From Gracilariopsis chorda (Eukaryota > Rhodophyta > Florideophyceae > Gracilariales > Gracilariaceae): a stretch of DNA of 64,000 nt. The notes under the pieces are model-generated. The model was not told the origin of the DNA and searched no databases. It saw only the letters and a program-made list of their open reading frames with translations. The stretch is from NCBI GenBank assembly GCA_003194525.1, contig NBIV01000042.1, positions 310,001-374,000 of the forward strand. The letters run 5' to 3'. This document shows positions 38,082 through 61,264 of the stretch, piece after piece (the stretch's first letter is position 1; each line of letters begins with the position of its first letter). The position numbers and the translations under genes are program-made.

Positions 38082-39753
38082 TTGGCAGTCATGCTGAATT
38101 CGGAGAATCCCTACGTGCAGATATTCTGCAGCCTGTTCGAGTGGGCTCTCACCAATACACTAGTGATTTCGTATCAGATGGGGATTCATGCTGATGGACC
38201 GCCCCGCGGCGAGCATGTTCGTTGCTACAACGGGTTCGAGGCGTCGCAAGTTGCCGCGATCATTCCAGGGAATGGGAACGGCAAGATTGGGACGCGTGAT
38301 ATTGTTTTGCGTAGCAGTGGAGGGTTGAACTCAAATGGCAATGAGGTGTTGGAAACTATCCCCGTCAGTCACAGATCGTACGATCAGCTGAGCTACGTTC
38401 TTTTTATTCCCAGGTGGCCAGGACGGATGGCACCCTGAGATGACGTATTGGCCTCCCAACGCCTCGCGAGAGAAGAACGTGACTCTGATAATGTATTATT
38501 CGTGGCAGATTTTCGAGAGACTCACAGAGTCTAGAACAATTCTACGCGGCACACGGCTCTTCCAGCAGTACATGGTCAACCATTTCTGCAAGGTTGAGTC
38601 GGAGCATTTGTCTTACTTACGACACAACCAGAAGAGAATTCGAGCCGCTGACTATACATTCCTGCGGGAGAGCCTGGGCGACTCTCTGATGGGCGTGGAT
38701 GAGGCTAATGCTGTTCGAGCTGGACGACTGTTCGTGTTGCCTTCGACATTTGTTGGAGGTGACCGATACATCAGACAGCAAATGCACGACATCATCGCCA
38801 TATCCAACACGATTGGGCACCCCGATATCTTTCTCACGATGACGTGCAATCCGCACTGGCCTGAGATCACCAGTGCACTGTTCGATGGTCAGCACGCTCC
38901 CTATCGACCAGATCTTTGTCATCGAGTGTTTCGTTTCAAGATGAAAGCCTTGATGTCTTTCGTCGTTGATTAACAGGTTTTTAGAGCCGTTGTTGCTCAC
39001 ATGCGTGTGGTCGAGTTCCAAAAGTGAAGCCTACCGCAGGTGCACATCGTCTTCGTGCTCAACGAAGAAGCAAGGCAGCAGTTACGAGATTTTGAGCACA
39101 TTGACGAGCTCATTTGAGCTGAGATTCCTCCTTCCTCCGACGCCACCTTACAAGAGTTGGTGCTAAAGCACATGATTCACACTCTGTGCGGTACATGGAA
39201 CCGGTCAGCGCTGTGCATGCGCGAGCTGACCTGCTTACAATACTTTCCCAAGCCGTTTCGCTTCGAAACCACACGCCTTGAGAATGAGTACTACATCAGC
39301 TACCGACGACGCGCTCCTTCCAAGGGCGGGGTGTCTGTAGAGCGAAGCTCCAGAGTCGGTCGCCAACAGCGCGTAGTAACTTTGGACAGTTCGTGGGTGG
39401 TTGCAAATTGTCCAGAGCTTCTCCACCGGTTTGCATACCACATCAACGTTGAGCTATGCGTATCGCGAGTAGGCGGTATCAAGTACCTCTTCAAGTATGT
39501 GTCCAAGGGTTCCGACAGAGTCATCCTGGAGATTGTAGATGAGAACAGACGTCATAAAGAGATTCTGACTTCCAGGACCCACGGTATGTGTCAGCCTCCG
39601 AGGCAGTATGGCGGATGCTTGCGTTCGACATCGTTGAGCGCGATCCACCCGTCGTGCGGCTTGAAGTACACTTGGAAAATCACCATACGTTGTTCATACT
39701 GGAGGGCGACGAGCATTCTACTGCTACCAGACAGTGGGCAGGTACCAAGCTGA
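38082..39753 (+). pseudogene. Helitron Rep (Helitron_like_N plus HUH endonuclease), broken
   Basis: 38082-38438 reads EASQVAAIIPGNGNGKIGTRDIVL and SHRSYDQLSYVLFIP; 38440-38973 reads HPDIFLTMTCNPHWPEI. The HUH motif that should follow (GLPHVHIVFVL) appears near 39028-39060 as SLPQVHIVFVL after a stop, so the first catalytic His is Gln. The tyrosine region VGGIKYLFKYVSKGSDR (about 39470-39520) is intact. Near 39555 the frame shifts; beyond it DPRYVSASEAVWRMLAFDIV continues the family pattern. Confidence 0.8.
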
Positions 39754-40478
39754 CTAAGTAGTTTGTGGTCAACCAAAAGTACCCCGGGGCACCGCATATC
39801 CCTTATACCGAGTTCCCGAGGTACTTTACTTGGAACAAATGAAACAAATGCTGGAGGCCTCGTGCGTGTCTCCCACGTTTTTCATTATCTCGACGCCAGC
39901 CCACTTCCTCCCCTGTGGCCGCTGCAGCCGATGTATATGACTTCACTGGCAGCGGTACGCACGTAGTTGGGCGCATCTATACTGCCAGTTCACGAGAGGT
40001 GAGCTGTACTACCTCTGCTTACTCCTGACCCACACAGCGGGTGCTACTTTCTTTCAGAATCTCCACACCGTGCATGGTCAGCAGTTGGGTAGCGTCAGGG
40101 AGGCTGCCTAAAGAAGGGCCTTCTTGCCAACGACAGAAAGTGGAGACGCGCACTGCGCGAGTACTTTCGCTCCTCATTTATTCGGCTATCTCATTTGCTT
40201 GCCACTATCTTGCTCTACTGCGAGCCGTTGAACCCACGTACTCTGTGGGAGCACCATCTACCCCTGTTCCTGCAGGATATACGGGCTGGACATTGCGGCA
40301 TGATGCAGGCACTGGCCAAAGACGAACGAGCCGGCTCTTAAGTTCTGTTAGAAGTGCAAAAGGCACTGTAAGAAATGCGTGGAACATTGGCCTCTCTGTC
40401 TACGTATGATCTTCCGACACCCATGGAACACATACCGGAACTGCGCGCTCCAGAATCTAGTCGGAGCTGCAAGAAACT

Positions 40479-41941
40479 GTGCAAGCTGCCCTCCCTCTCT
40501 TCAATGAACGTCAGCGTCTGGCATTCAATACCGTCGTCGGGGCCATGCTTCCTGGCGTGTCCGTAGAGAGCCTGCAGGGTCTTGGTGGTCCTTCTACAGC
40601 AGAGCAGCCCACCACTCGCGTCTTCTTCTTGGACTCCCCGGGTGGAACCGGCAAGAATTTTCTCTCCAACGCAATTAAGGCCGCGTTACACCTTCGTGGC
40701 AAGTCCGTTCTTACGGTAGCAACGTCTGCTGTAGCAGCCATACTGCTTAAGGGCGGTCGAACGGCCCAATCATTGTTCAGGATTCCAATCCCAGCGCCCG
40801 CTGAGAGCACATGCAACATCCCAGTCAACTCTTACCTGTCAAATCAAATGAAGAACGTCGACCCCATTATATGGGGCGAGATCGTAATGTGTCATCGCTT
40901 CTGCGTCTAAGCCGTAGACCGCACTATCCGTGACATAACGCGCTCGCAGTGTCCATTTGGAGGCAAATTCGTGTTGTTCTCTGGCGACTTTCGGCAGATT
41001 CTTCCCGTTGTTCATGGTTGCTCTCCATCCGCAATTGTGAACGCAGGAATCAAACGCTCAAGTCTCTTCTCTCACTTTTGCCTCTTGAGACTCACTGAGA
41101 ACATTCCCCTTTCTGTGCTCCACCGAGACCCTACAGCGACACAGGAGGCATTAAGTTCCCGTAAACTGTCTTGCAAACTGGAGAAAAATGCTTGCAAGGG
41201 ACTATCCCCCTAAAGCACCCACTTAACCTTCCAAATTCCGGAAAATATTTCGAATCGTTCCACACCATGATCTGCAATGTATTTTATGGTATAACTAAAA
41301 GGTACGTTGATGCAGATTGGCTAACGTCAACCGTGATTATAACCGCACGAAACTATTGGCTACCAGAGCTCAAAGAATATGTAGGCCACATGATACCAGG
41401 AGCGTGTCGGATGTATCTTAGTGCGGACAAGGTGGGTGACGAGGACAGTGCCGCTTTGCAAAAAACTATTGAGATGCCTCAACTTCTGACTGCAGGGTCA
41501 GCGCTGTCAGAACACCGCCTGGAACTCAAAAAGGCCTTTTGATTATGCTTCTTTGCAACTTTGATCCCTAAAACGACCATTTCAAGGGTGCCATCTATAC
41601 GCTAGAAGACATGCAAAGCAACTTACTGATCTTTCGACTCGCTTCTGGAGTTAATCGTGGAAATGCACTATTCCTGCCATGCATGCCATGTGGACCTGCA
41701 CAAAACACCTTTTTAGTTCCCAAATTTACTCGAACTCAGTTCCGTACTTTTTTTTCTTGCCATAACTAACAATAAGGCACAGGGTTAGTCGTATAGTAGT
41801 CGCATCGTGCTGAATTTGCGTTATGGCTGTGTCAAGCATGGGCAGCTGTACGTCGCGTTTTCTAGGACGAGCAACCTGTCCAACATCGTTGCATGTCTCC
41901 CTGTCAGTGCTACGTCTACGAAAAATGTAGTGTACCCTCAA
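40479..41941 (+). pseudogene. Helitron PIF1-like helicase, broken
   Basis: 40479-40910 contains LFNERQRLAFNTV and the Walker A block FFLDSPGGTGKNFL, then LTVATSAVAAILLKGGRTAQSLF. 40971-41213 has LFSGDFRQILPVV, the PIF1 Walker-B-adjacent motif. 41171-41542 has TVIITARNYWLPELKEYV. The last motif, HGQLYVAFSRTSNLSNI, is at about 41837-41887. Stops at about 40910 and several frame changes break it. Confidence 0.8.
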
Positions 41942-42554
41942 GTTCTTTCGTTGAGGAACTTGATAGGTTTAAGTAAACGTCTTTTTTTCATCTTTTTCTT
42001 TTCTTCTTCCTTTTCACTCCCCAGAAATACTTGCACTCTACAAACCCATTACACAAAACACGCTACCCGAATACTCCTTTCACCCAAATGCTTCTTTCAC
42101 TCAATGCCTGCGAAGCACGCAATGGAGTCACTTGTTTGTTACTGTGATTGCTGATTGACCACCACTACCATCATCATCAGCCGTCAACATCGTCATCATC
42201 ATCAACCTTTGTCCGTACTGTAAGAAGCGGACGTCACAGCTTCCGCCGTCCAACAACATGTACTGTAACTAACCACATGCGTGGGCCGTATTTTGAGGCT
42301 ATCATGCTCTGATTGGCTGTTTCTTATACATATGCCGCACCACGTGTACTCACTAGTAGACACTAGACCTCAGCCGTCACAGCGCCTGATCTTTCTACGT
42401 GTAATGTCTATGGAGTCACAATGCAACCGGTGTTCTGGAGGTGCACAGGAAAGCTCTCGCAAGAGCGCAAACTTGTGGGAGTTCCATGATGGTTCCTCCG
42501 TCAACACTGGCATCTCGAGGATTGTTGCTATTCACCCCATGACCAAAGGAAATC
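41942..42554. other. Intergenic region upstream of the NLR-like gene
   Basis: Contains an imperfect CAT/ATC microsatellite at about 42165-42206 and no recognisable gene. It must hold the promoter of the NLR-like gene and possibly the 3' end of the Helitron. Overlapping frames at 42281-42910 run into the start of the NLR-like gene in other phases. Confidence 0.4.
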
Positions 42555-45500
42555 ATGTCGATGCAGCCGAGAGCCGCACCATCGGCTCTCAATCCAGGGG
42601 GGGCAGTAATAGGGGAATCTGTCATTCGTGCAGTCCGGGTACCGCCGGAGAAGGGACGCCATCGTTTCTTGCGCGGACGTTTCAAGAACCAGCCAGTGAT
42701 CGCCCGCATCAGCGCCAGTGTCGTCCTTTGGGCGTTTGAGAAGCACACCGCCAATATCTGCGGAGCCGTTGAAGAATGGCGGGATCTTGACCTCTGGGGC
42801 AGGCTTTCCGCTTTGCGTCGTAACACTATTGAGCTCTCAAGAGATCCGCGGAGCGTCACTGTCGAGCTGAATTCTAACAGTTCTTCCGGGGCCGTAGCGC
42901 TCATGACCACAACTGTCAGTCTCGTCTTGCCGCAAGACAGTAGTCACTCTCTAACTCTTGACTTCGGTACCGATAGCACTACCGCACAGGACTGGTACGC
43001 TCAACTGCGACTAATGACGCTATCGTGGGCTGACCTCATAAGTCAATCCAAGGGTACGTTGATACCAACACTACAGGCAACCGGACTTGTCAAGTCTTTG
43101 GGTCTCACCACGCACCAGGTCCCTGCTAGGGCACAGACCACCAGCTCGCTGGATCACCCTGTATCTTCGGATATATCAGACCCTCAGCAGAACGCTATTG
43201 ACGTTATCCATGACAAGCTTTTGGAGTCAAATGCACAAGTACAAAATGGGGCGGAATGGGTCGGTGGAGTCATCGAAGCACTGGATATCACTCTTCCAGT
43301 ATTTGAAGAAATATGCTCTAAGCTCCCGCTTGTTGGTGCTGCCGTGCAGCTCACGTGCCTGGCACTGTCGACCATTTCTGTATTATACGGCACTAAGGCT
43401 GAACGACGACTTGTGGATGACGTACGAATGCGATTAAACCGAATCGCTGCGAGAGTGCTGCTTGAGATGTTACACGCCGGGTCGAGGAGGTCACTGGATG
43501 ACACAGAGTATGTTCAAAACCTACAAAGCATAATGGCCGAACTAGAGAGGTCTCATGCTGCTCTCGACAAGTATGTCATAGCAAGCGTTGTAAGTCGCGC
43601 TGCGTCAGGTCCCATTCCATCAAGTATCCAAACGCGGCTCGAAGAAATAGAGAACAACTTAGCGCGCCTGCGGAATCTCCACATAGCCTTGCAAACGTCC
43701 AAAAATGTGGAAGGCATAAGGAAGCAGTTGAACGAGTTGAAAATCTCCATTGCAAATAGAGAGAGTGCCAGTGTGATTGACACTTTCAAACCGGCGTTTC
43801 TAATGACCTATCGAGTCGATCTGGAACGCATGCCGGTTGTGACAGAAGCATGTCCGATGTTTGAATCAGTGAAGCAGGCTCTTACGGATTCTAAGCGCAA
43901 GAAGAGTTATCGCGCCATTCATGTTCACGGTGAAGGGGGTATCGGAAAGACAGTGATGTGTTGCCTGCTTGTTGCAGACGAAGACATCCAAAATGAGTTT
44001 TATGAAGGCTGCCTTTGGGTGCAGCTGGGTAAAGGAATATCTGAGAGTGGAGTAGTGGCGGAGATCAGCCGCAAGGTAAAACGCTTCGGAGGCATCGAAA
44101 TCGCGCAGAAAATTGACAAACTCGCGAAACAAAAGGACGGACTTGAGGAAGCTGTTGAAATGGTTGGGGACTTTTTCCGTGGTCGTCATGTTGTGTTGTT
44201 TTTAGATAATGTATGGCTTCGACCTCCGGAGAAGAAGAGCTGGTATGAGGTATTATCAAGACTTGTTCCTGGATCTAATTCTACTGTCGTTGTATCTTCT
44301 AGGGAGAAAAACGTATGCGAGAGTCACGCCGTCCATAGCATAAAACTTACTCCTCTAAAGATCGCTGAGGAAGAGAGCCAACGCAGAGCGGCAATCACCC
44401 TTTTTGATTTCTTCTTCGATCGCACTACGGGGGAACACGAATGGAAGGCAGAAAAAGGAAACTCGCACTTTGTCTCAGAGAGAGAGGAACTGCTGAAGCT
44501 CACTTGCGGTATTCACATTCTAATCGAAATGGTTGCAAAGTACGTCGCGAATTGCAGAATTAGCCGGAAACAGACGTTGCAATCCGCGAGACAGCGCCTC
44601 AAAGATCGCATTCTATACCTCTCAACACAAGGATATTACGAAAGCCCACATATGGCTGCAGTCATATCGGAAAGCCTTGCACACATAGATGACGTCGCAG
44701 CCAGGGACTCCCTTGGCTTTATCAGCGAAATCCGGAAGAACCATGAACCAGATTTCTTCTCGCAATCGTACGAAGCATTGTGCATTGCTCCTGAAGAGAG
44801 AGGGGCTGTTCCTGTTTCTTTGTTACAGCTTTTATGGGAGCTATCGTATGACGAGGCTCTCGCTGTGGCCGAGATGTTTGAAAGCGCTTCTATCGCAAAG
44901 ATTGAAGCTACTGAGTTCGGTACCTGCATCGGCTTCGAGCTGGTACTACACGATTTGCAGAGGACATTTTGTGAAGAGGGCGCTTCTCGCAATCGTCGGT
45001 TGCACAGCCACCATGAGAATCTTCTCCGCAGATTTGGTGCGAAAAGGAACGCATCTTTGTGTGACCCGGATTATGACTGGTCACTGGATTGCTTTCCCAC
45101 GGAAACTTCTGAACAGGAAGTCAAGGAGCGAGGCTATTATATGGCTCGTCATTTAGTACGCCATATGATAGCTGCAGAAGGCAGTGGAGATAAAGGAATG
45201 AAGTCCGGTCTTCTGAGAGTTGTGTCCGACTTTCGATGGATATCAAAGCGTGGGAACCACTTCGGACGAAATGGTCTCCTGCAAGATCTCCGCAGTGCTG
45301 CGCCGCTGTTGACAAGATCGGATTCGATGTCTCTTGAAAGCTTCGGAACATCAGGGAACACGAGTATCAAGGCTATACGATGGACAGACTCGGAAATGGA
45401 GTTTCTCGGCCTTTTGCGGCGCATCATCATGTCCATTCCACCAGATGCCTATGAGGGTTTTGGTGGTCAATTTGCTAGCAGCGTTGCAACCTCCCTGTAT

Positions 45501-47849
45501 GGCCGAGTCGAAGCGGCAAGAGACTGGATCAGAAGAAGGGTACCGCAAGGCGTTTTCGATATCAACAGCAGTGAAGCCCCGTTTTCAGTGGTCAAAGGTC
45601 TGGCGGATATGTCGAGGGGTATCTTAGACAACATACATGACATATGGCTACTCCCAGTCACAGTTTATGCTGATGCCCCGCAAGGCATGGACGACAGAAT
45701 GGAATTTGAGCTCGCGGTCAGTAATGACCAGATTCGGGGAGTCACCGCATTGGCAAGTGGGTACCATGTCGTTACCGCAGGCTGTGACGGGAAGATCCGT
45801 ATTCATGATATCACGACTGGTGAAACCACTTGGTCTTTCTCGCAGCATCACGGAACGGTACTCTGCGTTAAATCTACGAATAGGGATTTCGATGACCAAG
45901 GTGAGCATGTTGTTTCTTCCTCAGTGGATGGTTCGATTAGAGTATGGCGTGTCGACGGTGAGTTCCGCCCAACCCTCCATTTCGTACAATGCTTGGCCAT
46001 ACCAGGTGAAGCGACCGACGAAAGAGACCATAAGCAACAGCCAGTGCACGTAGATGTTACGAAGGACGGTAAGCTTATCGTGGCGTATAGGAAGTTCCGG
46101 GTGCATTTGTGGAAGCGGAGTCCCGGCAAATCTGGGAAATACGAATACAAATACGCTTTACCAGGGAGTATCAAACTTTTTCCGATGACGCTTGCAGTTT
46201 CAGATGACGGATCTTTTGTTGCCTGCGGAGGTTTCGGAGCGCCACACTTGGTGGAATGGAAGCTGACAAAAGACGCATCAGAATCGGACGAGGACTGGCT
46301 AAGCCGTTGGCTTAATGTCCCGGAGGCCTTAACTGAGACTCTTTCTGTAACTCTCTCCTCTGTTGGGACCGAACCGCGTCACGAGACTAAATTCTGCTGG
46401 TTCGGTACTCGTTTTGGTCTGTGTGTGCATGATGTCAGTTGTAATGAAGGCAAGGACCCTCATCAGGTCGCCTCTTTCCTGCGAAAGGGAGTTACTTCTA
46501 TATCAGTGCTTTCCCATGAACAAGATTGGAGGCATTGTGAACTCCTGTTGGGCCATCGTGATGGCAGTATCACCAGACATCAATCGCTATTGCACGATTG
46601 CAATGAGTCATACGGGAAGAGGTCTCCGTTTGGATCTAACGCTGTAATCTGTATGGCGGTATTGCAAACTTCCTCTGGGCTCAAGGAAAGGCCAGCTCGA
46701 TTTGTTACTGGGCATGCAAATGGTATATTGCGGGTATGGCGTTTTGAATATCGACCCCAGGTTCTTTCCTCGGGGCCCGTGCCTATTGACGAGTCGTCCA
46801 ATGTAGTGTCGGGCGGGAGCGGTGAAGCACTTGTTCACCTCGCAAGTACATCCACACCGGGCGGGACTATTATTGTGTCTGGATCTTCAAGGGGCCAGCT
46901 AAGTATTTGGAAGGCGAGTTCCGGTGAACAACTGGCGTCAAGACGCGTGCGAACGATAATATCTTTCAGGAGCGGAAGACGCATGTTCCTAGAAATTTCT
47001 GCTTTAGACATATCCTACGTCAATGGCAGCATCGTAGTTTTGTCGGGAGCATCAGACTACAAGCTTCGGACGTGGGATGTAAGTAGAAATGGAACGTGGG
47101 AAGTAAGGATGCCGCAGGCGGAGCAATGGAGCATGGGTCCCGGCGTTACGGAATACGGTGTCAGACCGGGCTTCTCGATGACACTGATGTCAAGCGACGG
47201 GCGTCGTGTTGTGGTTGCGCTGACAGACGGGGACGTGAGGATCTACGAATCTCGAGAAGGTATTTGGGACGGCTCCACCTCAGTGCATTGCGTATATTCG
47301 TCGAGTGCCCTACTAGCGTGTGTCAGATTCCAACAGCTACAGGCATTTCATAATACGAAGAATTTCAAGGCATTGGCTATATCTGAAGATGGTACTTGCT
47401 ATGTGCTTATGGACTTCCGCGGAATGTGTCTATTCATCAACGCCAGTGATCCGTCAAATGGTGCATTGGGGTGGAGAAATGACGTCAAAGAGAGAGACCG
47501 TGTGATTCCGTCTTGTGTCCCGCTGCTTGGAAGGAATTCATGCGGCTCGTGGCGGGAGTCGTCGGTATCGGGAAAGTATATCGACACCCAGTTGAAGAAG
47601 AAGTTTGTTGGAAGAAATGGTGCTGCAGTAACAGTTCGATGCTTTCCGCAGGGAAATATTTCATCACAACGTGTGAATGTGCACGTCGATGGGGACGATT
47701 CTGCACGCACGACGACATCTGTGAGCTTCGACGCGCATGTAGAAGACATTCTACTAATGAAAACGGAAGCGGACGAGACGCAAGAAGGTATATTGCTGGC
47801 ATGCGGGCTACGAAATGGATCCCTGCCCATCTTTAGGCTTGTAACATAA
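42555..47849 (+). CDS. STAND/NLR-like protein: PH-like - helical (HeLo/4HB-like) - NB-ARC - WD40
   Basis: An uninterrupted 1764-codon frame without introns. Residues about 20-165 form a beta-rich PH-like region ending LDFGTDSTTAQDWYAQLRL. About 215-330 is all-helical with a hydrophobic helix (KLPLVGAAVQLTCLALSTI), resembling HeLo/MLKL-type four-helix cell-death domains. A coiled-coil stretch follows (ENNLARLRNLHIAL near 375). NB-ARC: P-loop HVHGEGGIGKT at about 457-467, Walker B HVVLFLDNVW near 550, sensor STVVVSSRE near 580, and an MHD-like VLHDLQ near 797. About 12 WD40 repeats fill 1058-1764 (for example DGKIRIHDI, DGSIRVWRV, NGILRVWRF, YKLRTWDV). The order resembles APAF1, with WD40 sensing the ligand and NB-ARC switching by nucleotide-driven oligomerisation. 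Whether it drives immunity or cell death is inference. A LINE lies 4 bp after the stop. ATG at 42555 is the first in frame; another follows two codons later. Confidence 0.85.
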   Translation: MSMQPRAAPSALNPGGAVIGESVIRAVRVPPEKGRHRFLRGRFKNQPVIARISASVVLWAFEKHTANICGAVEEWRDLDLWGRLSALRRNTIELSRDPRSVTVELNSNSSSGAVALMTTTVSLVLPQDSSHSLTLDFGTDSTTAQDWYAQLRLMTLSWADLISQSKGTLIPTLQATGLVKSLGLTTHQVPARAQTTSSLDHPVSSDISDPQQNAIDVIHDKLLESNAQVQNGAEWVGGVIEALDITLPVFEEICSKLPLVGAAVQLTCLALSTISVLYGTKAERRLVDDVRMRLNRIAARVLLEMLHAGSRRSLDDTEYVQNLQSIMAELERSHAALDKYVIASVVSRAASGPIPSSIQTRLEEIENNLARLRNLHIALQTSKNVEGIRKQLNELKISIANRESASVIDTFKPAFLMTYRVDLERMPVVTEACPMFESVKQALTDSKRKKSYRAIHVHGEGGIGKTVMCCLLVADEDIQNEFYEGCLWVQLGKGISESGVVAEISRKVKRFGGIEIAQKIDKLAKQKDGLEEAVEMVGDFFRGRHVVLFLDNVWLRPPEKKSWYEVLSRLVPGSNSTVVVSSREKNVCESHAVHSIKLTPLKIAEEESQRRAAITLFDFFFDRTTGEHEWKAEKGNSHFVSEREELLKLTCGIHILIEMVAKYVANCRISRKQTLQSARQRLKDRILYLSTQGYYESPHMAAVISESLAHIDDVAARDSLGFISEIRKNHEPDFFSQSYEALCIAPEERGAVPVSLLQLLWELSYDEALAVAEMFESASIAKIEATEFGTCIGFELVLHDLQRTFCEEGASRNRRLHSHHENLLRRFGAKRNASLCDPDYDWSLDCFPTETSEQEVKERGYYMARHLVRHMIAAEGSGDKGMKSGLLRVVSDFRWISKRGNHFGRNGLLQDLRSAAPLLTRSDSMSLESFGTSGNTSIKAIRWTDSEMEFLGLLRRIIMSIPPDAYEGFGGQFASSVATSLYGRVEAARDWIRRRVPQGVFDINSSEAPFSVVKGLADMSRGILDNIHDIWLLPVTVYADAPQGMDDRMEFELAVSNDQIRGVTALASGYHVVTAGCDGKIRIHDITTGETTWSFSQHHGTVLCVKSTNRDFDDQGEHVVSSSVDGSIRVWRVDGEFRPTLHFVQCLAIPGEATDERDHKQQPVHVDVTKDGKLIVAYRKFRVHLWKRSPGKSGKYEYKYALPGSIKLFPMTLAVSDDGSFVACGGFGAPHLVEWKLTKDASESDEDWLSRWLNVPEALTETLSVTLSSVGTEPRHETKFCWFGTRFGLCVHDVSCNEGKDPHQVASFLRKGVTSISVLSHEQDWRHCELLLGHRDGSITRHQSLLHDCNESYGKRSPFGSNAVICMAVLQTSSGLKERPARFVTGHANGILRVWRFEYRPQVLSSGPVPIDESSNVVSGGSGEALVHLASTSTPGGTIIVSGSSRGQLSIWKASSGEQLASRRVRTIISFRSGRRMFLEISALDISYVNGSIVVLSGASDYKLRTWDVSRNGTWEVRMPQAEQWSMGPGVTEYGVRPGFSMTLMSSDGRRVVVALTDGDVRIYESREGIWDGSTSVHCVYSSSALLACVRFQQLQAFHNTKNFKALAISEDGTCYVLMDFRGMCLFINASDPSNGALGWRNDVKERDRVIPSCVPLLGRNSCGSWRESSVSGKYIDTQLKKKFVGRNGAAVTVRCFPQGNISSQRVNVHVDGDDSARTTTSVSFDAHVEDILLMKTEADETQEGILLACGLRNGSLPIFRLVT

Positions 47850-47853
47850 CAGC
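47843..47853. repeat. LINE target-site duplication, left copy
   Basis: AACATAACAGC here and at 48739-48749 flanks the LINE insertion exactly. The left copy contains the NLR stop codon TAA (47847-47849). Confidence 0.9.
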
Positions 47854-48705
47854 GATGCCGATGGACATAAACTTAAATGGCGTGTACTTAACATTTCCGA
47901 GGTTGGGGGAAGTGCTTTTGCGATCTGGTGGAATGCATCAATTACCCCCCAAACTGGCATGGAGCCCGCAGGGATAGGGACAACGTCGTTTTATGCGGAA
48001 ACATGGGCAATATATCACTCACTTCAAGTTGTTAAGGGAAGAATAGGATCTGGGTGGACTGGACACATAAGGCTGATAACGGATTCTCAGAGCGTGGTTG
48101 AGAGTATCCGAGGAGCTGTAAGAGATCAGCCGTATTCTGTGCAACAAGTATCACGTACATTGTACGAGATTGGCAAAACATGCACTATGGATATGGTCTG
48201 GGTACCGAGCCATTGCGGTTTGCACCGCAACGACCTTGTAGACAGTTTGGCCAAAGAAGCATTGGAACTACCTCAGCACTTGCAGATAAACGTGCCAGTG
48301 GACTACGCAGAAGTGAAACGAAGAGTGAAGTCTCGAACACGATGTAGGAGAATTATTCAGTCTATACCTCAGGAGCTCACACAAGTGGTATCACAAAGAG
48401 AAGCGGAAGTTACATTGTCGCAGTTTGCAGTAGGCCATACACCTCTTTTGCACCCGCTCGGAACGCACTTGTACAAGCGAAGAATCGTGTGTACTTGCCG
48501 ACCGGGAGTACTGAATGATGTGGACCACTTTGTTCTAAGGTGTCCTTTGCGAACAAGGTCCCGCCGAACCTGCCTGCCAAGTATGCGAGAAAGACACGGG
48601 ATGGATGTTGGAGAAATCATCAAAAAGTGGCCGGAATGTATGCTGGTCTTCCTAGCGAGAGAACGCTTTTTTCACATGAAGCGATCTACACTATGTAGGA
48701 ATTAG
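47854..48705 (+). pseudogene. LINE ORF2 remnant: RNase H and Cys-rich C-terminus
   Basis: The frame reads DADGHKLKWRV (first catalytic Asp region) and GGSAFAIWWN, then TSFYAETWAIYHSL (Glu), HIRLITDSQSVVESI (Asp) and VWVPSHCGLHRNDLVDSLAKEA (last Asp). So the RNase H catalytic set D-E-D-D is present. A C-terminal CTCRPGVLNDVDHFVLRCP is the C-x-C...H...C element of many LINE ORF2 proteins. There is no start codon of its own before 47959 and no RT, so it is a fragment. Confidence 0.8.
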
Positions 48706-48738
48706 ACTGGTGTACCCGTAAAAGAGAGAGAGAGAGAG
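47854..48738 (+). mobile_element. 5'-truncated non-LTR retrotransposon (LINE) insertion
   Basis: 885 bp between the two 11-bp AACATAACAGC repeats. Only the C-terminal RNase H and a zinc-knuckle-like tail of ORF2 remain, followed by a 3' (GA)n tail at about 48724-48739. This is the pattern of target-primed reverse transcription with 5' truncation. Tail type and RNase H suggest a Jockey/I-like clade; exact clade not determined. Confidence 0.9.
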
Positions 48739-48749
48739 AACATAACAGC
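48739..48749. repeat. LINE target-site duplication, right copy
   Basis: AACATAACAGC, identical to 47843-47853. Confidence 0.9.
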
Positions 48750-50263: not shown

Positions 50264-51023
50264 CTATGCAATGATACAACAGCCCTTTGGAACCGCATCA
50301 GGCGGTGTATCATCAGCGGGACGATTGGCACCATCATCTTCTCGTTTCTTATTTCTAGGCGGTCCACGAATCATGCGCACATTGTTCATCGTAGCCTCGT
50401 CGTCGCCCACAGTGGGGTGACGCGTAGAATGTCTCCACTCGCCATCCACGACAAACTTGAACTCGTGAATTCCGGCGGGCACCGGAGTGACAACGGACCA
50501 CATTCCACCTCCTTCATGATACATTTGAATGGTCATCCAGCCGTTCCACGAGCCTGATAATTGGACGTCATTTTCTGCACCATCGGCCCATACGAATTCG
50601 GTCTTGACCATGACCTCTTCTTCCTCCTGGTTCTTCTCATAGGTGTTGTGCACGAACGGGGCGTTTCCTTTTGCCTTTGGTTTGGTTTCGTCTTCCACTT
50701 GTTCGGGCGGGTGTTGAGCTGATGCGGGTTGGGGTTGATGCTGCGCCTGTGGTTGCTATGCACATGGAGTTGTACAAACGAAAGAAAGCACAAAAGTTAG
50801 TACACAAGTTGTGTGTTGCAGTAGTGAAAGAATGGTGCCGAAAAGAGAGAAAAAAAGAAACATACCTCATTCGGTTGAACAGTTTCCGCAGCGGAGGCGC
50901 GATCGGAGGTGAGCTTATGGTCAGAAGTGAGGGTCGCTTCCGACACAGATTGCACTTGGACAAGATCAGGCACATGCTGATGAGCGTGAGCAGCGGACTG
51001 GGAGCGGTTGACAATGGTGTCGG
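50264..51023 (-). CDS. CBM48/AMPK-beta-like glycan-binding protein with C-terminal CaaX box
   Basis: The main exon (50755 to 50264) encodes an AMPK1_CBM/CBM48 domain: KTEFVWADGAENDVQLSGSWNGW, IQMYHEGGGMWSVVTPVPAG, HEFKFVVDGEWRHSTRHPT and NNVRMIRGP. The Trp residues and VDGEW are the starch/glycogen-contact positions in the family. The C-terminus is Asp/Pro-rich and ends GCCIIA: CIIA is a CaaX prenylation signal, and the adjacent Cys could be palmitoylated, so the protein may sit on a membrane. An intron at 50756-50865 (GTATG...ATAG, 110 bp, phase 0) joins the exon to an upstream acidic segment ending AAETVQPNE. That exon has no ATG; a plausible acceptor lies at about 51024, so a further 5' exon is expected but not found. 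The 5' limit is uncertain. The paralogue is at 62062. Confidence 0.7.
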
Positions 51024-53400: not shown

Positions 53401-55704
53401 CTACACTCCAAAGTCCTGCCCAGCCAACATGGCCTTGGTGCCACCTAACCTCTCCGCCGCTTCTGTAAACGAACTCCAGTTCGATCCGTACAGCGTCTTG
53501 CATTTCGAAAGCGAATACAGATCCGCCAGCGCATACTTGACACACTCCCCATCGCGCTCATCGCAAGAACGCTTGATGGACAGGATTCGCTGCGTTCCGT
53601 AAATCTTTTCCAACTGCTCGATAACTTCAAACGTGTCGGTAGCCACAAAGAACTTCACCGACGGTTTCTCCTTGATAAGCTTGTCCATCTGCTTCATAAA
53701 GTTGTGCACGCCACTCTTGTGGCGCCACATGTCCATAGTCTTGGTAGCCTCATCGCCGTACTCCTGAATGAAGTTCACGTTCTTAATGTCCTTTGACAGA
53801 GTGCGATTGCGAACATGCAACCCGATCACGTTGTCCGAGCCGAGCCCCTTGTCCTCAAGCTCTCGCACCAGCGTGTTCACAGCATCAATGGGCGTCAAAG
53901 ATCTCAAGTGCTCGTTATCCTTGTCCCAGTTGGTGAGCGCCGTGTTCTCAACTTCCATGATGTACGCGCCCTTGTAATACATGTGCTTGTTGGGCAGATC
54001 CTTAATGATCTCTCCCTTCACAGCGCCCTGACCTTCCATTTCCATGTAGTTGTGGAACTTGAATTCGGTCCACACCGAGTCCCACTTCTCTACTTCAGCA
54101 AACGGCCACTGCACAGGCATCTTTTCGAGCACCACAAACTTGTCGCTGAACATGTGCGAGAACTTGGCCTCAATATGACTGTCCGGTTCCCACACGACAA
54201 TAAGCTCTCTGCTCGACTCCTTCGCAAACGACATGCAACTGCCCAGCGCGCGCAGTCGGTTGCCGAGCCCATGCATACAGTGGCACACAAGCACGCGCGG
54301 GATAGGAAGCGCATCCACATCGACCATTTCATTCTGTCGTCCAGCGGCGTCCAATTCAGCGCGCTTGAGCTTTTCGCGGTTCTCCGTGCGCATCATCATG
54401 CGACGTAGCAGCATTTCCTTCGGCTGAATATCCAGGCTGGCAATGATGTCCCACGGCACCTTGTAGCTGTCATGCAGCCGACGGCCGAGAGCAACCGCCC
54501 ACGCCTCGTTGTACTCCTCCGGGGTGACGAGGTCCTTGAGCGCCTTGGGCTTGGCGGCGGCGCGAACGACGACCTTGTTCGAGGAGGCGGAGGCGGAGTC
54601 GTCGTAGTTAGTGGCCATGTGAAGGTCGTTCGACCACGGCTTGAGCTTTTCCAACAGCAACGAGTTGAGGTCAATCTCCACGGCGGCAAACTTGACGCCG
54701 GACTGAGCGCGTCCCGAATTGTCATGCTTGACGTGAGAGACGTGATCGTACGAGATGTTCATTTTCTTCAAGCCAGCGCCGCCCAAGCGGTTGTACAAGT
54801 CCTCATCGTCCCAGCCATAAGTCTGGATACGTTCATCGTAGCCTCCAATGTCCAAGAAGTGCTTCCTGCGAATGAAGACGGCGCCGTTAAGATGCACCTC
54901 ATTCTCGTTACGAGCGAGGTTGTAGTTGCCGGCGTAGTAGTGCTGACCGTCGTGAGTCGGGTCGGTGCTGCCGTCCGCCGCGGTGTCGCCCACGGCGGAG
55001 GAGTGGGTTTGTTGCATGAGTTGGCGGTGGGCAGTGACAAAGTGTGGGCCGACCTGGTAGTCACAGTCGGTGCGAATGACGTGTGAATAACTGGTAGCGT
55101 TGAGAGCCAAGTTGTACGCCCTGGAGAGCACCCACGAGGGCTCGCCCTCGACGCGAATGATCTTGACCTTCTCACCTCCCTCGATAGCCCTGACAACGGG
55201 CTCCAGCGGGGGGTGCGAGCTCCAGTCGACCAGGATAACCTCGTCGACGTCCTTGACGGCGAGCCACGCGGGCACGGTCTTCTTGAGGGTGTCGTGTCGG
55301 CCCATGCACACGGCGGCGAGCGAGACGCCTTCCTTGACGGCATTGGAGGGGACGTTGACGCGGACGGTGGGGGAGAGATTGGACGGTCGCGCTAGGGCGG
55401 AGAGGCCGAGGCGGTCGAGCACGTGGGCGCCGTTGATGCGGGCGGACTCGGCGGCGACGGAGCGGACGGCGCGGGGGGAGTGGGCGAGGAAGAAGAGGAG
55501 AAGCGCGGCTAGCACGAAGGCGATCTGCAGGACGGCGGAGCGGGGGAGGTGGAGGAGATGGGGGGAGGTGGAGGGACGTCGAGACTTGGCGGAGTAGAAC
55601 AGTCCGGCGGAGGTTTGGAACTCGGGGAGACGCTTGATGGGGCGGCGGAGCGCGGCGCCGGAAGTACCATCATCGTAAAAGCGACAGACCTGCGCGCGAG
55701 CCAT
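53401..55704 (-). CDS. Bifunctional Golgi glycosyltransferase: GT-A (GT2/GT7-like) fused to GT-B fucosyltransferase-like
   Basis: A 767-aa intronless protein. Membrane anchor at about 57-75 (VLQIAFVLAALLLFFLAH), so type II topology. Residues about 125-345 form a GT-A domain: VILVDWSSHPPLEPVV, TDCD at 212-215 (DxD metal site) and GAVFIRRKHFLDIGGYDERI followed by GWDDEDLYNRL at 297-307, as in galactosyltransferase/chondroitin-synthase type enzymes. Residues about 470-767 form a second module: CHCMHGLGNRLRALGSCMSF at 474-493, NVIGLHVRNRT at 625-635 and KFFVATDTFEVI, then a Cys-containing end SCDERDGECVKYALADLYSL. This resembles GT-B fucosyltransferases, though the HxRRGD motif is HVRNRT. Donors and acceptors are unknown; a role in matrix polysaccharide or glycoprotein synthesis is inference. 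A 36-G tract (C on this strand) lies 21 bp upstream of the start. Confidence 0.75.
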   Translation of the reverse strand: MARAQVCRFYDDGTSGAALRRPIKRLPEFQTSAGLFYSAKSRRPSTSPHLLHLPRSAVLQIAFVLAALLLFFLAHSPRAVRSVAAESARINGAHVLDRLGLSALARPSNLSPTVRVNVPSNAVKEGVSLAAVCMGRHDTLKKTVPAWLAVKDVDEVILVDWSSHPPLEPVVRAIEGGEKVKIIRVEGEPSWVLSRAYNLALNATSYSHVIRTDCDYQVGPHFVTAHRQLMQQTHSSAVGDTAADGSTDPTHDGQHYYAGNYNLARNENEVHLNGAVFIRRKHFLDIGGYDERIQTYGWDDEDLYNRLGGAGLKKMNISYDHVSHVKHDNSGRAQSGVKFAAVEIDLNSLLLEKLKPWSNDLHMATNYDDSASASSNKVVVRAAAKPKALKDLVTPEEYNEAWAVALGRRLHDSYKVPWDIIASLDIQPKEMLLRRMMMRTENREKLKRAELDAAGRQNEMVDVDALPIPRVLVCHCMHGLGNRLRALGSCMSFAKESSRELIVVWEPDSHIEAKFSHMFSDKFVVLEKMPVQWPFAEVEKWDSVWTEFKFHNYMEMEGQGAVKGEIIKDLPNKHMYYKGAYIMEVENTALTNWDKDNEHLRSLTPIDAVNTLVRELEDKGLGSDNVIGLHVRNRTLSKDIKNVNFIQEYGDEATKTMDMWRHKSGVHNFMKQMDKLIKEKPSVKFFVATDTFEVIEQLEKIYGTQRILSIKRSCDERDGECVKYALADLYSLSKCKTLYGSNWSSFTEAAERLGGTKAMLAGQDFGV

Positions 55705-57498: not shown

Positions 57499-58299
57499 TC
57501 AGTTGTTGATCCTTCCCCGACTTTGAGAGTACCGCAAACAAGCTGCAACAATCCACATTGCGAGCGACCGCGGCAGCATTCGAAGCGCCACCTTTCTCAA
57601 CCGGTTCATGAAACCGGGCGTACAAAACGTTCGGGTCCCGAACACACGCAGTGCTTCAGATACGCAGACATTCACAGGCATCATGCTAGTAGCAGCGTGC
57701 TTGCCCAAGGCGCTTTCCTTTGGAAGCGTCATTTCAGACTCCACAAATCCAGGTTCCAGTGCCATGCAACAGACGCCATGCTGACGAAACTCTTGATGCA
57801 GCGTACCAGCAAGCGTGGAAACATATGCCTTCGACGATGAATAGGCTGAGAGGTAGGGGATACCTGAGGACGACAAACTGCTGACGAAGATGATACCCCC
57901 TCTTTTTTGCGCGCACATTCTGTTCCCATACGCGTGGGCAAGGTGCGTTACCGCACATATATTCAGAGCGATCAGCTGTTGGAGCGCTTGTTGAGATGAG
58001 CTCAGAAATGGCCCGTGCGTTTCCATGCCAGCATTGTTAATGAGAAGGCCGACTTCAATCGCTGAAGTTTCTTGTACAACGCGCTCAAGGTCTTCGACGG
58101 ATGTGAGATCGGCCACGATTACGACCGTCTTCACCTGGAACGTCGTTCGTAGCTGTGCGGCAAGGAGTTGGAGCCTTTGTTTTCGTCGCGCAACTAGCAC
58201 TACATTGAAGCGCTGCGACGCAAGTTGGCGCGCGAACTCGGCACCGATCCCAGAGGAGGCGCCAGTGATCACCGCCCATGGTCCATACTTGTCGAGCAT
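57499..58299 (-). CDS. Short-chain dehydrogenase/reductase, 17-beta-HSD12/KAR-like
   Basis: A 266-aa classical SDR. It begins MLDKYGPWAVITGASSGIGAE with the full TGxxxGIG motif (12-19), continues with LLINNAG (NNAG near 88-91) and VSSLSSSGIPYLSAYSSSK, with catalytic Ser near 140 and Y153/K157. GxxPGFVESEM follows (LEPGFVESEM). The C-terminus after 215 is helical and basic. The opening KYGPWAVITG is shared with the gene at 60437, so the two are paralogues. The substrate is unknown; the family includes 3-ketoacyl and steroid reductases. The ATG at 58299 gives the shortest consistent N-terminus. Orientation is divergent from the paralogue. Confidence 0.85.
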   Translation of the reverse strand: MLDKYGPWAVITGASSGIGAEFARQLASQRFNVVLVARRKQRLQLLAAQLRTTFQVKTVVIVADLTSVEDLERVVQETSAIEVGLLINNAGMETHGPFLSSSQQALQQLIALNICAVTHLAHAYGNRMCAQKRGGIIFVSSLSSSGIPYLSAYSSSKAYVSTLAGTLHQEFRQHGVCCMALEPGFVESEMTLPKESALGKHAATSMMPVNVCVSEALRVFGTRTFCTPGFMNRLRKVALRMLPRSLAMWIVAACLRYSQSRGRINN

Positions 58300-60436
58300 A
58301 GTCTGTCCCAGAACAAATGGGTTACCAAGGGTAAGCCTTCACCGAATGGCCACCTCTGTTGGGGTTTGCTATGAGTGAGAGCTCGCCGCGCAAGTGCAGA
58401 TGTATTGTAGAGAACTGCGCTTTTCTACGAAGATACTCTGCACTTGGAGAATACAGTACCAGGAACGTCGGGAAGCGTTGGACCGTTTCGCTGTTCGTTT
58501 CATTCAATATGATGGCTTGGATGGCGCTGTACACTACCCGGATGGTGAGTTAGCCGACAGCTTCTCGACGGTTTACCAAGGCACCGGCCTGGCGGGTTGC
58601 AACGGACGTGGAGGTCTCTTTTTGGACAGCGCTGTAAACGTTTATCATACATGAGCTTCTTCGTGGAGGGGTGGCTAAAGCATTATGGTGAGCATCATGC
58701 CGATCACAAGGTGGCCTGACCTTTGGACGGGCGTCACGTTTGTGCTCATTTGTGGCCGGGCTTACCCCAATTGTTTGTCTGTGAGCGCGGGCTGTGCGAC
58801 TCCACGTGTGGCGCAAACGGCGCCGAGCTGGAGTTAGCTACACAACTGTAATAACTTATTTTTGGAAATCGACACTGCTACTTTGCGGCACGCGTTCATT
58901 ATAGCGCCCAATAAAGGCGCCTTCCGCCGCCGATCGAAGCAGCATCGGCGGCAAACTTTGCTGCTTCAGCGCAAGTTGCTTGACCCTTTTTGACGGCAAG
59001 CATCCCCAGCACACGCCGCCCACAACACAGATCGCCACAAGCTGCTCCATTCTCCTCAAAGCACGTGTGCCCTTTTTGCCTCACCTCATCCTGTCGCTTC
59101 ATCCTATTCAACGTGCACAGGCTGCCCCATTCCCGTCGGTACGTACATAATTCATGTATGCACTTTTTAAGACTGCCCGTACATAGCAATCCTACAGTAC
59201 CCTTGTGTATTGCTGCGCAGCCTGTCCCTGTTTTTACCGACGATGAGCTTAGTCCGCGAATACAACACAATGCGGCAAGCAACATTCAAACGCATCATAC
59301 CAGCAGCAGCTTATGACGTCATCCTCCGTACAATTAAGCGAAATCGTCTATCATACAGTACCGGCATCAGTCACCACGGGTAAAGCAAAACAAGCTTTGT
59401 GCGAGCGATTTCATCTCCGGAATCAAAAACTCCCAGCGACACCAAGCTGACGCATCCGACTTCAGGCGCTCACAACCAAAACAACAGTACGCTACGTGCC
59501 CTCGTGTCTGTTGGATACAACAACCCACCCCCTCTCTTTGCACAACGTTTCCCTGGCAGCAGAGAGCATTCGCTATCGAATCCCTTGCGGAATCGTAAGC
59601 AACTCCACAAATCTATTCCTGAACAGAGACGATCCTGGAGGTGCAAAGGTAATGATGCAGTAGTATAAAATCTTAATCTTTTTTTGAAGCCTGAGTTTCG
59701 CGCTATCTGTATGCACAAGGGTGAAGTTTTTTTTAATGCACGCCTAAAGCGTTGTCCCGACCAGTAGCGCGAACAATGAAGTCAGCATTATATGCCAATG
59801 ATTCTGCGAATGACAGCGGAGGAGGACGCGACAAGCATGTCATTTTCAACAACTCATAAGACAAAAGAACGGGTGCCACCTCGGACCGAAGCGAATCAAA
59901 CTGTGCGTTTTCGCTTTGCAAAGGTTGTAAGGCTACGTTTTTCTTCGAGATAGTTTGTGAAGCCCCTACCCTTTGTTACATCCTTCAACTGCACTGAGTT
60001 GTTTGAAGGAGTGTAAAGTATATCTACTTAAGAGCTCTTTAGTCGTCAATAAGAATGAGAGTGCAGGTAAGCTGGTTATAACCCTTAAACCTTTTTAGCC
60101 CTATCTTCTAAGCTCTCACTCTTACTCTCTCTCTCTCTCTCTCGCATATCCAATGGGTTAAACCCAAGAGTGCTATTAGAATCTAATCTTACTCATGGAC
60201 CGTCTCAGCAACATCTGGCAATATCCATCTACGAAGGGTAGCCTTCCCAGGTGGAACACGAGATACGAAGCCAGCAGACCTCTTGACATGGTTGTTTCTG
60301 CCATCCTGTTCGCAGCACTTCACGTTTGCAACAAGAATCACACTGCGAAAACGTGCTTTGCCAGTATCCCAACTGCTCAACGCACGCGCGCACCGCGCTT
60401 CAGTTTAGCTCCATATCCTTCTACCGTCTGAACGGA
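58300..60436. other. Intergenic region between divergent SDR paralogues
   Basis: Holds both promoters. No gene recognised; frames are short (under 130 codons) and match nothing. A (CT)n microsatellite lies at 60125-60143. A TTCGCTTTGC-rich stretch near 59905 and AT-rich sequence near 60010-60060 precede the plus-strand SDR. Confidence 0.35.
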
Positions 60437-61264
60437 ATGCCTTTGCCGTCAGATTTCGCTCAAAAGTACGGTCCTTGGGCTTTGGTGACCGGTGGTTCAG
60501 CTGGAATTGGACTTCAATTCTCCCATCAGCTCGCTGCAGCGGGTCTTAACATCGCAATTGCGGCACTAGGCGAGGAAGAGCTCATCAAAGCTGCAGGTGA
60601 AATTCGAGAAAAGTACGGAGTTGAAACCAAGTACCTCTTGGTAGATCTCACCTCTGAGGACGGATGGCGTAATGTAGTCGAAAGCTACGATGATATAGAG
60701 GTGGGCTTGCTTGTCAACAACGCTGGCATAGAAACCCATGGCTCCCTGTTTCGTGACCCTGTGGAAAAGCATGTGAACATTATTGACCTAAACTGCAAGG
60801 CATTGGTTGCGCTGACCCATGCATTCGGTAGAAGAATGGTCGACAGGAAGCGAGGTGGTATCATTTTCACAAGCAGTCTTCTCTCGACTCCAGCACCATT
60901 TTTCGCGACGTACAGCGCATCAAAGAGCTTTGTCACAAGCTTTGGACGTGCTGTTCGGGAGGAGTTTATACGATACAATGTTCAAGTCACAGTCTCGGAG
61001 CCTGGGATTGTGGAAAGTGATATGAGCAAAAACATAGCTAAGAACATGGACTTCTCGAAAAGTGGGTTCTCAATACAGAAGCCAGATGACTGCGTACGTG
61101 AAGCGCTGGACGCCTTCGCAAGTGGGAAGGTGAAACACATCGCGGGTCTTGGCAATCGGATTTCGATGAATGTGATAAGATCGCTTCCAGAGCCTGTTCA
61201 GATGGCCATGCTGGCTGGCTCGATAGATAGATCAATTTCACCTGAGATACAGAAATTCGATTAG
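60437..61264 (+). CDS. Short-chain dehydrogenase/reductase, paralogue of 57499-58299
   Basis: A 275-aa SDR starting MPLPSDFAQKYGPWALVTGGSAGIG; TGGSAGIG spans 18-25. NNAGIETHG at about 94-102 nearly equals NNAGMETHG in the other copy. TSSLLSTPAPFFATYSASKSF contains the Ser and Y159/K163. An earlier in-frame ATG at 60326 would add 37 residues with no fold counterpart in the paralogue, so the later start is preferred. The KHIAGLGNRI segment near 235-244 matches the CTPGFMNRL position of the other copy. Divergent orientation and about 2.1 kb separation fit an old inverted duplication. Confidence 0.85.
   Translation: MPLPSDFAQKYGPWALVTGGSAGIGLQFSHQLAAAGLNIAIAALGEEELIKAAGEIREKYGVETKYLLVDLTSEDGWRNVVESYDDIEVGLLVNNAGIETHGSLFRDPVEKHVNIIDLNCKALVALTHAFGRRMVDRKRGGIIFTSSLLSTPAPFFATYSASKSFVTSFGRAVREEFIRYNVQVTVSEPGIVESDMSKNIAKNMDFSKSGFSIQKPDDCVREALDAFASGKVKHIAGLGNRISMNVIRSLPEPVQMAMLAGSIDRSISPEIQKFD

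Follow-up and report, generated by a model that had tools for sequence, protein, structure and literature searches.

A diverged NB-ARC-WD40 gene, predicted to encode a STAND switch protein, in the red alga Gracilariopsis chorda

Proteins that join an NB-ARC nucleotide-binding domain to a WD40 region have been described from several red algae. In Chondrus crispus, 58 of 61 NB genes also encode WD40 repeats, and 23 of these 58 carry a TIR domain as well (PMC7145615); the TIR-NB-ARC-WD40 arrangement is published for this species (PMC9806590, PMC7145615). Comparable proteins are reported from Porphyra umbilicalis (PMC6928737; review PMC8307928), and in Pyropia yezoensis three of seven transcripts encoding NB-ARC plus WD40 were raised more than 1.5-fold in both stages of oomycete infection (PMC6928737). 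One study reports red-algal NB-ARC/WH/APAF1_C/WD40 proteins and cyanobacterial NB-ARC-WD40 proteins, together with a null mutant of an Ulva APAF1_C/WD40 protein, itself devoid of NB-ARC, in which no phenotype was seen (PMC8891106). In fungal NLRs, membrane-targeting C2 and HeLo or HeLo-like N-termini are known (PMC4986451). A preliminary description of the gene treated here placed it in a lineage where such receptors are poorly described, a view that is too strong because red-algal NB-ARC-WD40 proteins are already in print.

The gene lies in a window of 64,000 nucleotides from Gracilariopsis chorda contig NBIV01000042.1 and occupies positions 42555..47849 of the forward strand, stop codon included. 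Its frame runs uninterrupted from ATG to TAA through 1764 codons, giving a protein of 1764 aa, and an in-frame TGA stands 12 nt 5' of the ATG. When the frame is cut into 21 segments of 84 codons each, a codon-usage model trained on 13 paralog frames ranks it ahead of the five others in 16, with three ties and two losses. Both segments at the N-terminus have positive values (0.11 and 0.14), the first of them tying with a reverse frame. Open frame and codon usage thus agree on the single stop-free frame claimed earlier. The gene is intact, coding and apparently intron-free, and its sequence marks it as a genuine if slightly unusual representative of an established class, that of NB-ARC-WD40 proteins.

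Mobile DNA flanks the gene on both sides. Upstream, at 38440..42135 (+), lies a broken Helitron with Rep and helicase remnants, recognized by Helitron_like_N and PIF1 matches and by the ends of its copies; the start given is the first Rep remnant rather than a mapped end. The 39 other scored copies (from 254 candidates), 81-83% alike, all stop at 42135-42138, more than 400 bp 5' of the ATG, which places the gene outside the element and rules out its carriage by the Helitron. Downstream, at 47853..48739 (+), comparison of copies delimits a retro-element of 887 bp that carries an RNase H frame and a (GA)n tail and has inserted at the stop codon of the gene. Forty of 139 candidate copies were scored; of the long ones, 18 besides this one share 97-100% identity with it and a further five 76%. 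Seventeen of the 18 close copies share its first base or begin one base further on, and the remaining one begins 27 bp further on; LINEs truncated at random do not usually show so fixed a 5' end, which points to a short non-autonomous family. The earlier phrase "decayed mobile DNA" therefore suits the upstream neighbor, whereas the downstream one is young. The insertion is bounded by a 9-bp target-site duplication, ACATAACAG, at 47844..47852 (+) and again at 48740-48748, which holds the last codon and the stop. Because the stop-bearing duplication is present on both sides, an origin of the stop codon in the insert is ruled out; the event left the protein unchanged and shifted only its 3' flank. 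Farther along the window are an AMPK glycogen-binding module (PF16561, 71.2 bits; 50264-50698, -) adjoining a long poly-proline/poly-glycine stretch, and one long frame (53401-55704, -) with a glycosyltransferase family 2/galactosyltransferase region and a NodZ-like (fucosyltransferase) region, the latter under cut-off. Two short-chain dehydrogenases, each a single open frame, follow in opposite orientation (57499-58299, -; 60326-61264, +).

The center of the protein is an NB-ARC domain (residues 435-605; 43857..44369, +). A whole-protein Pfam search matches it to PF00931 with 53.7 bits against a curated cut-off of 23.5, in agreement with the NB-ARC assignment made earlier. The three motifs already named, GEGGIGKT, LFLDNVW and HDL, were located in an alignment of 29 rows from this genome, all on the forward strand: Walker A at residues 459-466 (43929..43952), Walker B/kinase-2 at 548-554 (44196..44216), and an MHD-like LHDLQ at 798-802 (44946..44960), which a PDB match also places in the winged-helix domain. 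Walker A, the first Walker B Asp, the sensor Arg and the winged-helix HD are all kept. The switch motifs are not fully canonical, a point that the preliminary description passed over: Asn stands in for the second Walker B Asp, and GIHI (44505..44516, +) occupies the position of GLPL. Among the 29 rows, LDN replaces LDD only here and in paralog L011, and a clear departure from GLPL is confined to this protein, L036 and L050. An LDD Walker B and a GLPL motif are usual, though not universal, in NB-ARC STAND NTPases; the second Walker B acid aids hydrolysis, and GLPL contacts the nucleotide. The protein can accordingly be assigned to these NTPases by its profile match and core motifs, with LDD and GLPL as the exceptions. 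The substitutions suggest that hydrolysis is weak and that ADP is less tightly locked in, perhaps a weakened ATPase in an APAF1-like switch. The earlier impression that the switch looks functional is upheld by Walker A, the sensor Arg and HDL, but not by the second Walker B acid or GLPL.

An APAF1_C-like helical arm (residues 857-930; 45123..45344, +) scores 13.3-17.3 bits, at best 17.3, against a cut-off of 22.8, and the gene is not among the 12 APAF1_C matches in the genome, eight of which pass that cut-off. Pfam matches to an APAF1-like winged helix are likewise weak and below cut-off. When residues 428-1042 are compared with the PDB, the best match is APAF1 (1z6t, E 3.1e-4), aligned in two pieces, of which one spans P-loop through Walker B and the other the winged helix including its HD; a search with the complete protein puts WD40 proteins (Ika8, RACK1) first, not APAF1. 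Of the APAF1-style order proposed, then, NB-ARC and WD40 are firm, but the winged helix and arm correspond to sub-cut-off matches.

The WD40 beta-propeller region (residues 1041-1764; 45675..47846, +) is strongly degenerate. Pfam places a WD40 match of 39.7 bits (cut-off 27) C-terminal to the NB-ARC domain, and a repeat profile built from the repeats of four paralogs finds six weak repeats above zero (4.5, 10.5, 0.2, 1.0, 6.5 and 11.2 bits), four of which exceed the best score in 20 shuffles, 1.6 bits. The same profile finds 12 repeats in each of the paralogs L040, L042 and L044, partly by construction, as these donated seeds. The 724 residues have room for two propellers, with only six weak repeats detected; the "about 12" WD40 parts first described are not borne out, although the WD40 assignment itself passes the Pfam cut-off. 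Near-identical repeats of the Podospora kind were sought in this protein and four paralogs and rejected, the best ungapped 42-residue self match being 11/42 here and 26/42 in the paralogs.

Ahead of the core stand about 430 residues in which a PH-like region and a HeLo/4HB-like helical domain had been proposed. The former (residues ~21-165; 42615..43049, +) leans weakly toward strand by periodicity, and the latter (residues ~216-430; 43200..43844, +) leans toward helix by periodicity and propensity and is a possible effector bundle. Over ranges chosen post hoc, strand-like periodicity is ahead in 14 of 20 windows within residues 31-145 (five against, one tie), and helix-like periodicity in 24 of 35 within residues 205-409 (ten against, one tie). 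Propensities give residues 21-165 a strand fraction of 0.28, not above that of other regions (0.22-0.30), and residues 216-430 are 0.44 helix but 0.30 strand too. These patterns would suit a beta domain with a helical bundle behind it, and prove neither. Residues 259-277 (LVGAAVQLTCLALSTISVL; 43329..43385, +) form the most hydrophobic 19-residue window of the protein, with a mean Kyte-Doolittle value of 1.95.

Profile searches give this N-terminus no name. Pfam has no match to residues 1-167 and no family over cut-off in residues 216-430; for residues 1-427 at E<=10 it returns nothing but PilJ (at most 16.5 bits) and Syntaxin_2 (at most 13.5 bits), both under cut-off and taken as generic helices, and CARD is absent from that search. 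No PH match was found in the protein by Pfam, and the frame is absent from the 17 genome matches to PF00169, 12 of which pass cut-off. HeLo has no match in the protein, nor PF14479 any in the genome. Against the PDB, the N-terminus yields only two chance-level matches (E 0.96 and 1.5), and against the genome at E<=10 residues 1-427 match only themselves (two candidates scored). Neither the PH nor the HeLo/4HB proposal thus draws support from profile searches, which leaves both unsupported rather than refuted. Among the titles and abstract openings listed for PH or HeLo with NB-ARC, none names a PH domain on an NB-ARC-WD40 protein, which is not proof of absence.

A profile search of the genome (91.3 Mb, 1081 contigs) gives 54 NB-ARC matches, including this gene, all over cut-off, a family that the preliminary description does not mention; such counts are lower bounds, and uncollapsed alleles could inflate the 54. 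Stop-free frames of at least 1000 aa hold 32 of the matches, and eight contain internal stops. In 29 frames scanned at E<=0.1, NB-ARC was found in all and WD40 in 26. The alignment and tree cover 29 frames including this gene; ten of the 54 matches, and others with no P-loop-bearing frame of at least 450 aa, were left out, as were L002, L003, L004, L006, L022, L023 and L039, second copies of loci already included. Two paralog pairs in the tree are identical (L020/L021, L027/L028). From NB-ARC to arm, this protein is 17-24% identical to the other 28. It forms a long branch (2.44) that falls outside a clade of 22 rows and pairs, across the midpoint root, with L038, whose branch is longer yet, a kind of long-branch join that may be false. 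Its placement in the family is therefore unsure, but it appears to lie outside the recent expansion.

Four TIR matches were found in the genome, and every one of them precedes a same-strand NB-ARC match by about 0.4 kb (contigs C152, C413, C428 and C891, the NB-ARC match in C413 and C891 carrying a stop); the frame of this gene has no TIR match. Six Peptidase_C14 (caspase/metacaspase) matches, none linked to this gene, and one partial phycobilisome-domain match (28.1 bits) were also recorded in the genome. The TIR pairing, reminiscent of the Chondrus crispus genes (PMC9806590, PMC7145615), and the phycobilisome match agree with the red-algal origin that the preliminary description considered. 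NCBIfam (E<=0.1) and PADLOC (E<=0.01) return nothing for this protein; two paralogs match PADLOC HEAT-ARM_XIII through their WD40 part, and L005 additionally, weakly, LeoBC. No viral relatives were confirmed, nor were any of 29 prokaryote matches found by pattern, a result that does not exclude cyanobacterial NB-ARC-WD40 proteins.

The paralogs start with a helical-looking domain of about 175-230 aa (for example L044:5243-5803 and L014:973-1503; also L005 and L013), and the 21 N-termini compared range from 69 to 251 aa. Pfam, run on 14 aligned N-termini, has no family that matches more than two of them, and seven scanned singly, two of which are also among the 14, give nothing over cut-off. 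A PDB profile search with the 14 yields 47 matches, mostly to helical or coiled-coil proteins, the best at E 0.012. The domain is possibly an unnamed effector family. Identity of residues 216-430 with this domain was not supported, at an hhalign probability of 0.1% in an insensitive comparison of one sequence with a 14-row profile; the same test failed for three of five other diverged paralogs (L005, L036 and L038) and succeeded for L013 and L024.

Rates of change differ along one recent paralog trio. In L040, L042 and L044, three non-independent pairs, dN/dS is 1.01-1.28 in the WD40 part, 0.49-0.56 in the switch region and 0.49-1.01 in the N-terminus. The six other paralog pairs have short or absent WD40 coverage (27-76 codons), with dN/dS of 0.46-1.30 where defined, and a wide switch-region range of 0.16-0.98, so that the contrast rests on the trio. 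It fits a variable sensing surface, could be relaxation, and concerns the paralogs, not this gene.

What is supported at the level of sequence comprises the NB-ARC domain, the HDL in a winged-helix-like stretch, the WD40 region and one intact frame. From these, the gene would encode an APAF1/NB-ARC-WD40-type STAND switch, one that has diverged within a family expanded in this red-algal genome, acting probably as an oligomerising sensor with an N-terminal effector or targeting region; this reading stands at about an even chance. It is favored by the NB-ARC and WD40 matches over cut-off, by APAF1 as best PDB match of the core, by the intact coding frame, and by the large NB-ARC-WD40 family in the genome, the trio dN/dS values and the infection-raised Pyropia transcripts (PMC6928737). 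It is weakened by the two degenerate switch motifs, the weak WD40 repeats and the lead of WD40 proteins in the whole-protein PDB search, as well as by an N-terminus that matches no known effector and does not align to the paralogs, and by the position of the gene outside the recent expansion. In such a switch, the WD40 propellers would maintain the closed state and detect either a ligand or a host protein that has been modified. The protein would open on nucleotide exchange and its NB-ARC units would oligomerise, whereupon residues 216-430, with their one strongly hydrophobic stretch, might act on a membrane or a partner, steered by residues 21-165. Instead of cycling as an enzyme, the protein might bind ATP and assemble in the manner of a slow or licensed switch. 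Judged by analogy to its family, it would most likely serve in defence or cell death.

That same position on a long branch outside the expanded clade, together with the single occurrence of residues 1-427, would also suit a conserved, single-copy housekeeping or developmental NB-ARC-WD40 scaffold whose unique N-terminal region binds a partner, and not a pathogen receptor. The Ulva null without phenotype has been counted toward it, though that protein lacks NB-ARC (PMC8891106), and fast evolution would fit the long branch too; such a role is unlikely, if the best placed of the alternatives. Less probable again is a regulator or decoy whose ATPase is dead or locked; it would bind nucleotide without cycling and would join and modulate the oligomers of active paralogs. 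The D-to-N change in Walker B, the lost GLPL and the degenerate WD40 region point in that direction, but the protein retains HDL and the sensor Arg as well as Walker A and the first Asp of Walker B, and the frame is intact, whereas eight of the 54 NB-ARC matches carry stops. A lipid-targeted, membrane-permeabilising receptor, with a PH domain and a HeLo/MLKL-like killer bundle on the NB-ARC-WD40 switch, is distinctly improbable. Strand-like then helix-like periodicity, the hydrophobic stretch and the existence of C2 and HeLo or HeLo-like N-termini in fungal NLRs (PMC4986451) are in keeping with it, but neither PH nor HeLo is matched, Pfam gives just the sub-cut-off PilJ and Syntaxin_2, and both PDB matches are at chance level; its odds are lowered further by the weak strand content of residues 21-165, at 0.28 no higher than elsewhere. 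Most doubtful of all is a pre-targeted apoptosome in which a lipid-binding barrel and a membrane-inserting bundle, fused to an APAF1-type core that has lost the Walker B acid and GLPL, would permeabilise membranes instead of recruiting proteases.

Should the N-terminus of the favored STAND switch prove to be an effector, the protein would exemplify an APAF1-like core that signals without a CARD. The family of 54 matches, with faster WD40 change in one trio, supplies candidates for red-algal receptors that can be put to the test; taken by itself, this gene adds only modestly to families that have been published before.

NB-ARC ahead of WD40 is an order common to this protein and APAF1 (1z6t), and a winged helix with HD and a putative helical arm would lie between them as in APAF1. 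In contrast to APAF1, no CARD is detected, the N-terminus of about 430 aa has no family assignment, the APAF1_C match falls below cut-off, and LDNVW replaces LDDVW. The core layout is also that of the NB-ARC-WD40 proteins of Chondrus crispus, Pyropia and Porphyra, from which this gene has diverged, its N-terminus being longer and two of its switch motifs degenerate; TIR, present in 23 of 58 Chondrus NB-WD40 proteins (PMC7145615), has only four matches in this genome. Those fungal NLRs that combine WD40 repeats with a HeLo, HeLo-like or C2 N-terminus place an effector or membrane-targeting part before a STAND core and repeats, as this protein may do, but most of the pairs listed for them have NACHT (PMC4986451) where this protein has NB-ARC, and the HeLo domain is not matched here. 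With the green-algal APAF1_C/WD40 family the protein shares WD40 and a putative APAF1_C-like arm; many of those proteins are described as lacking NB-ARC, whereas this one keeps it (PMC8891106).
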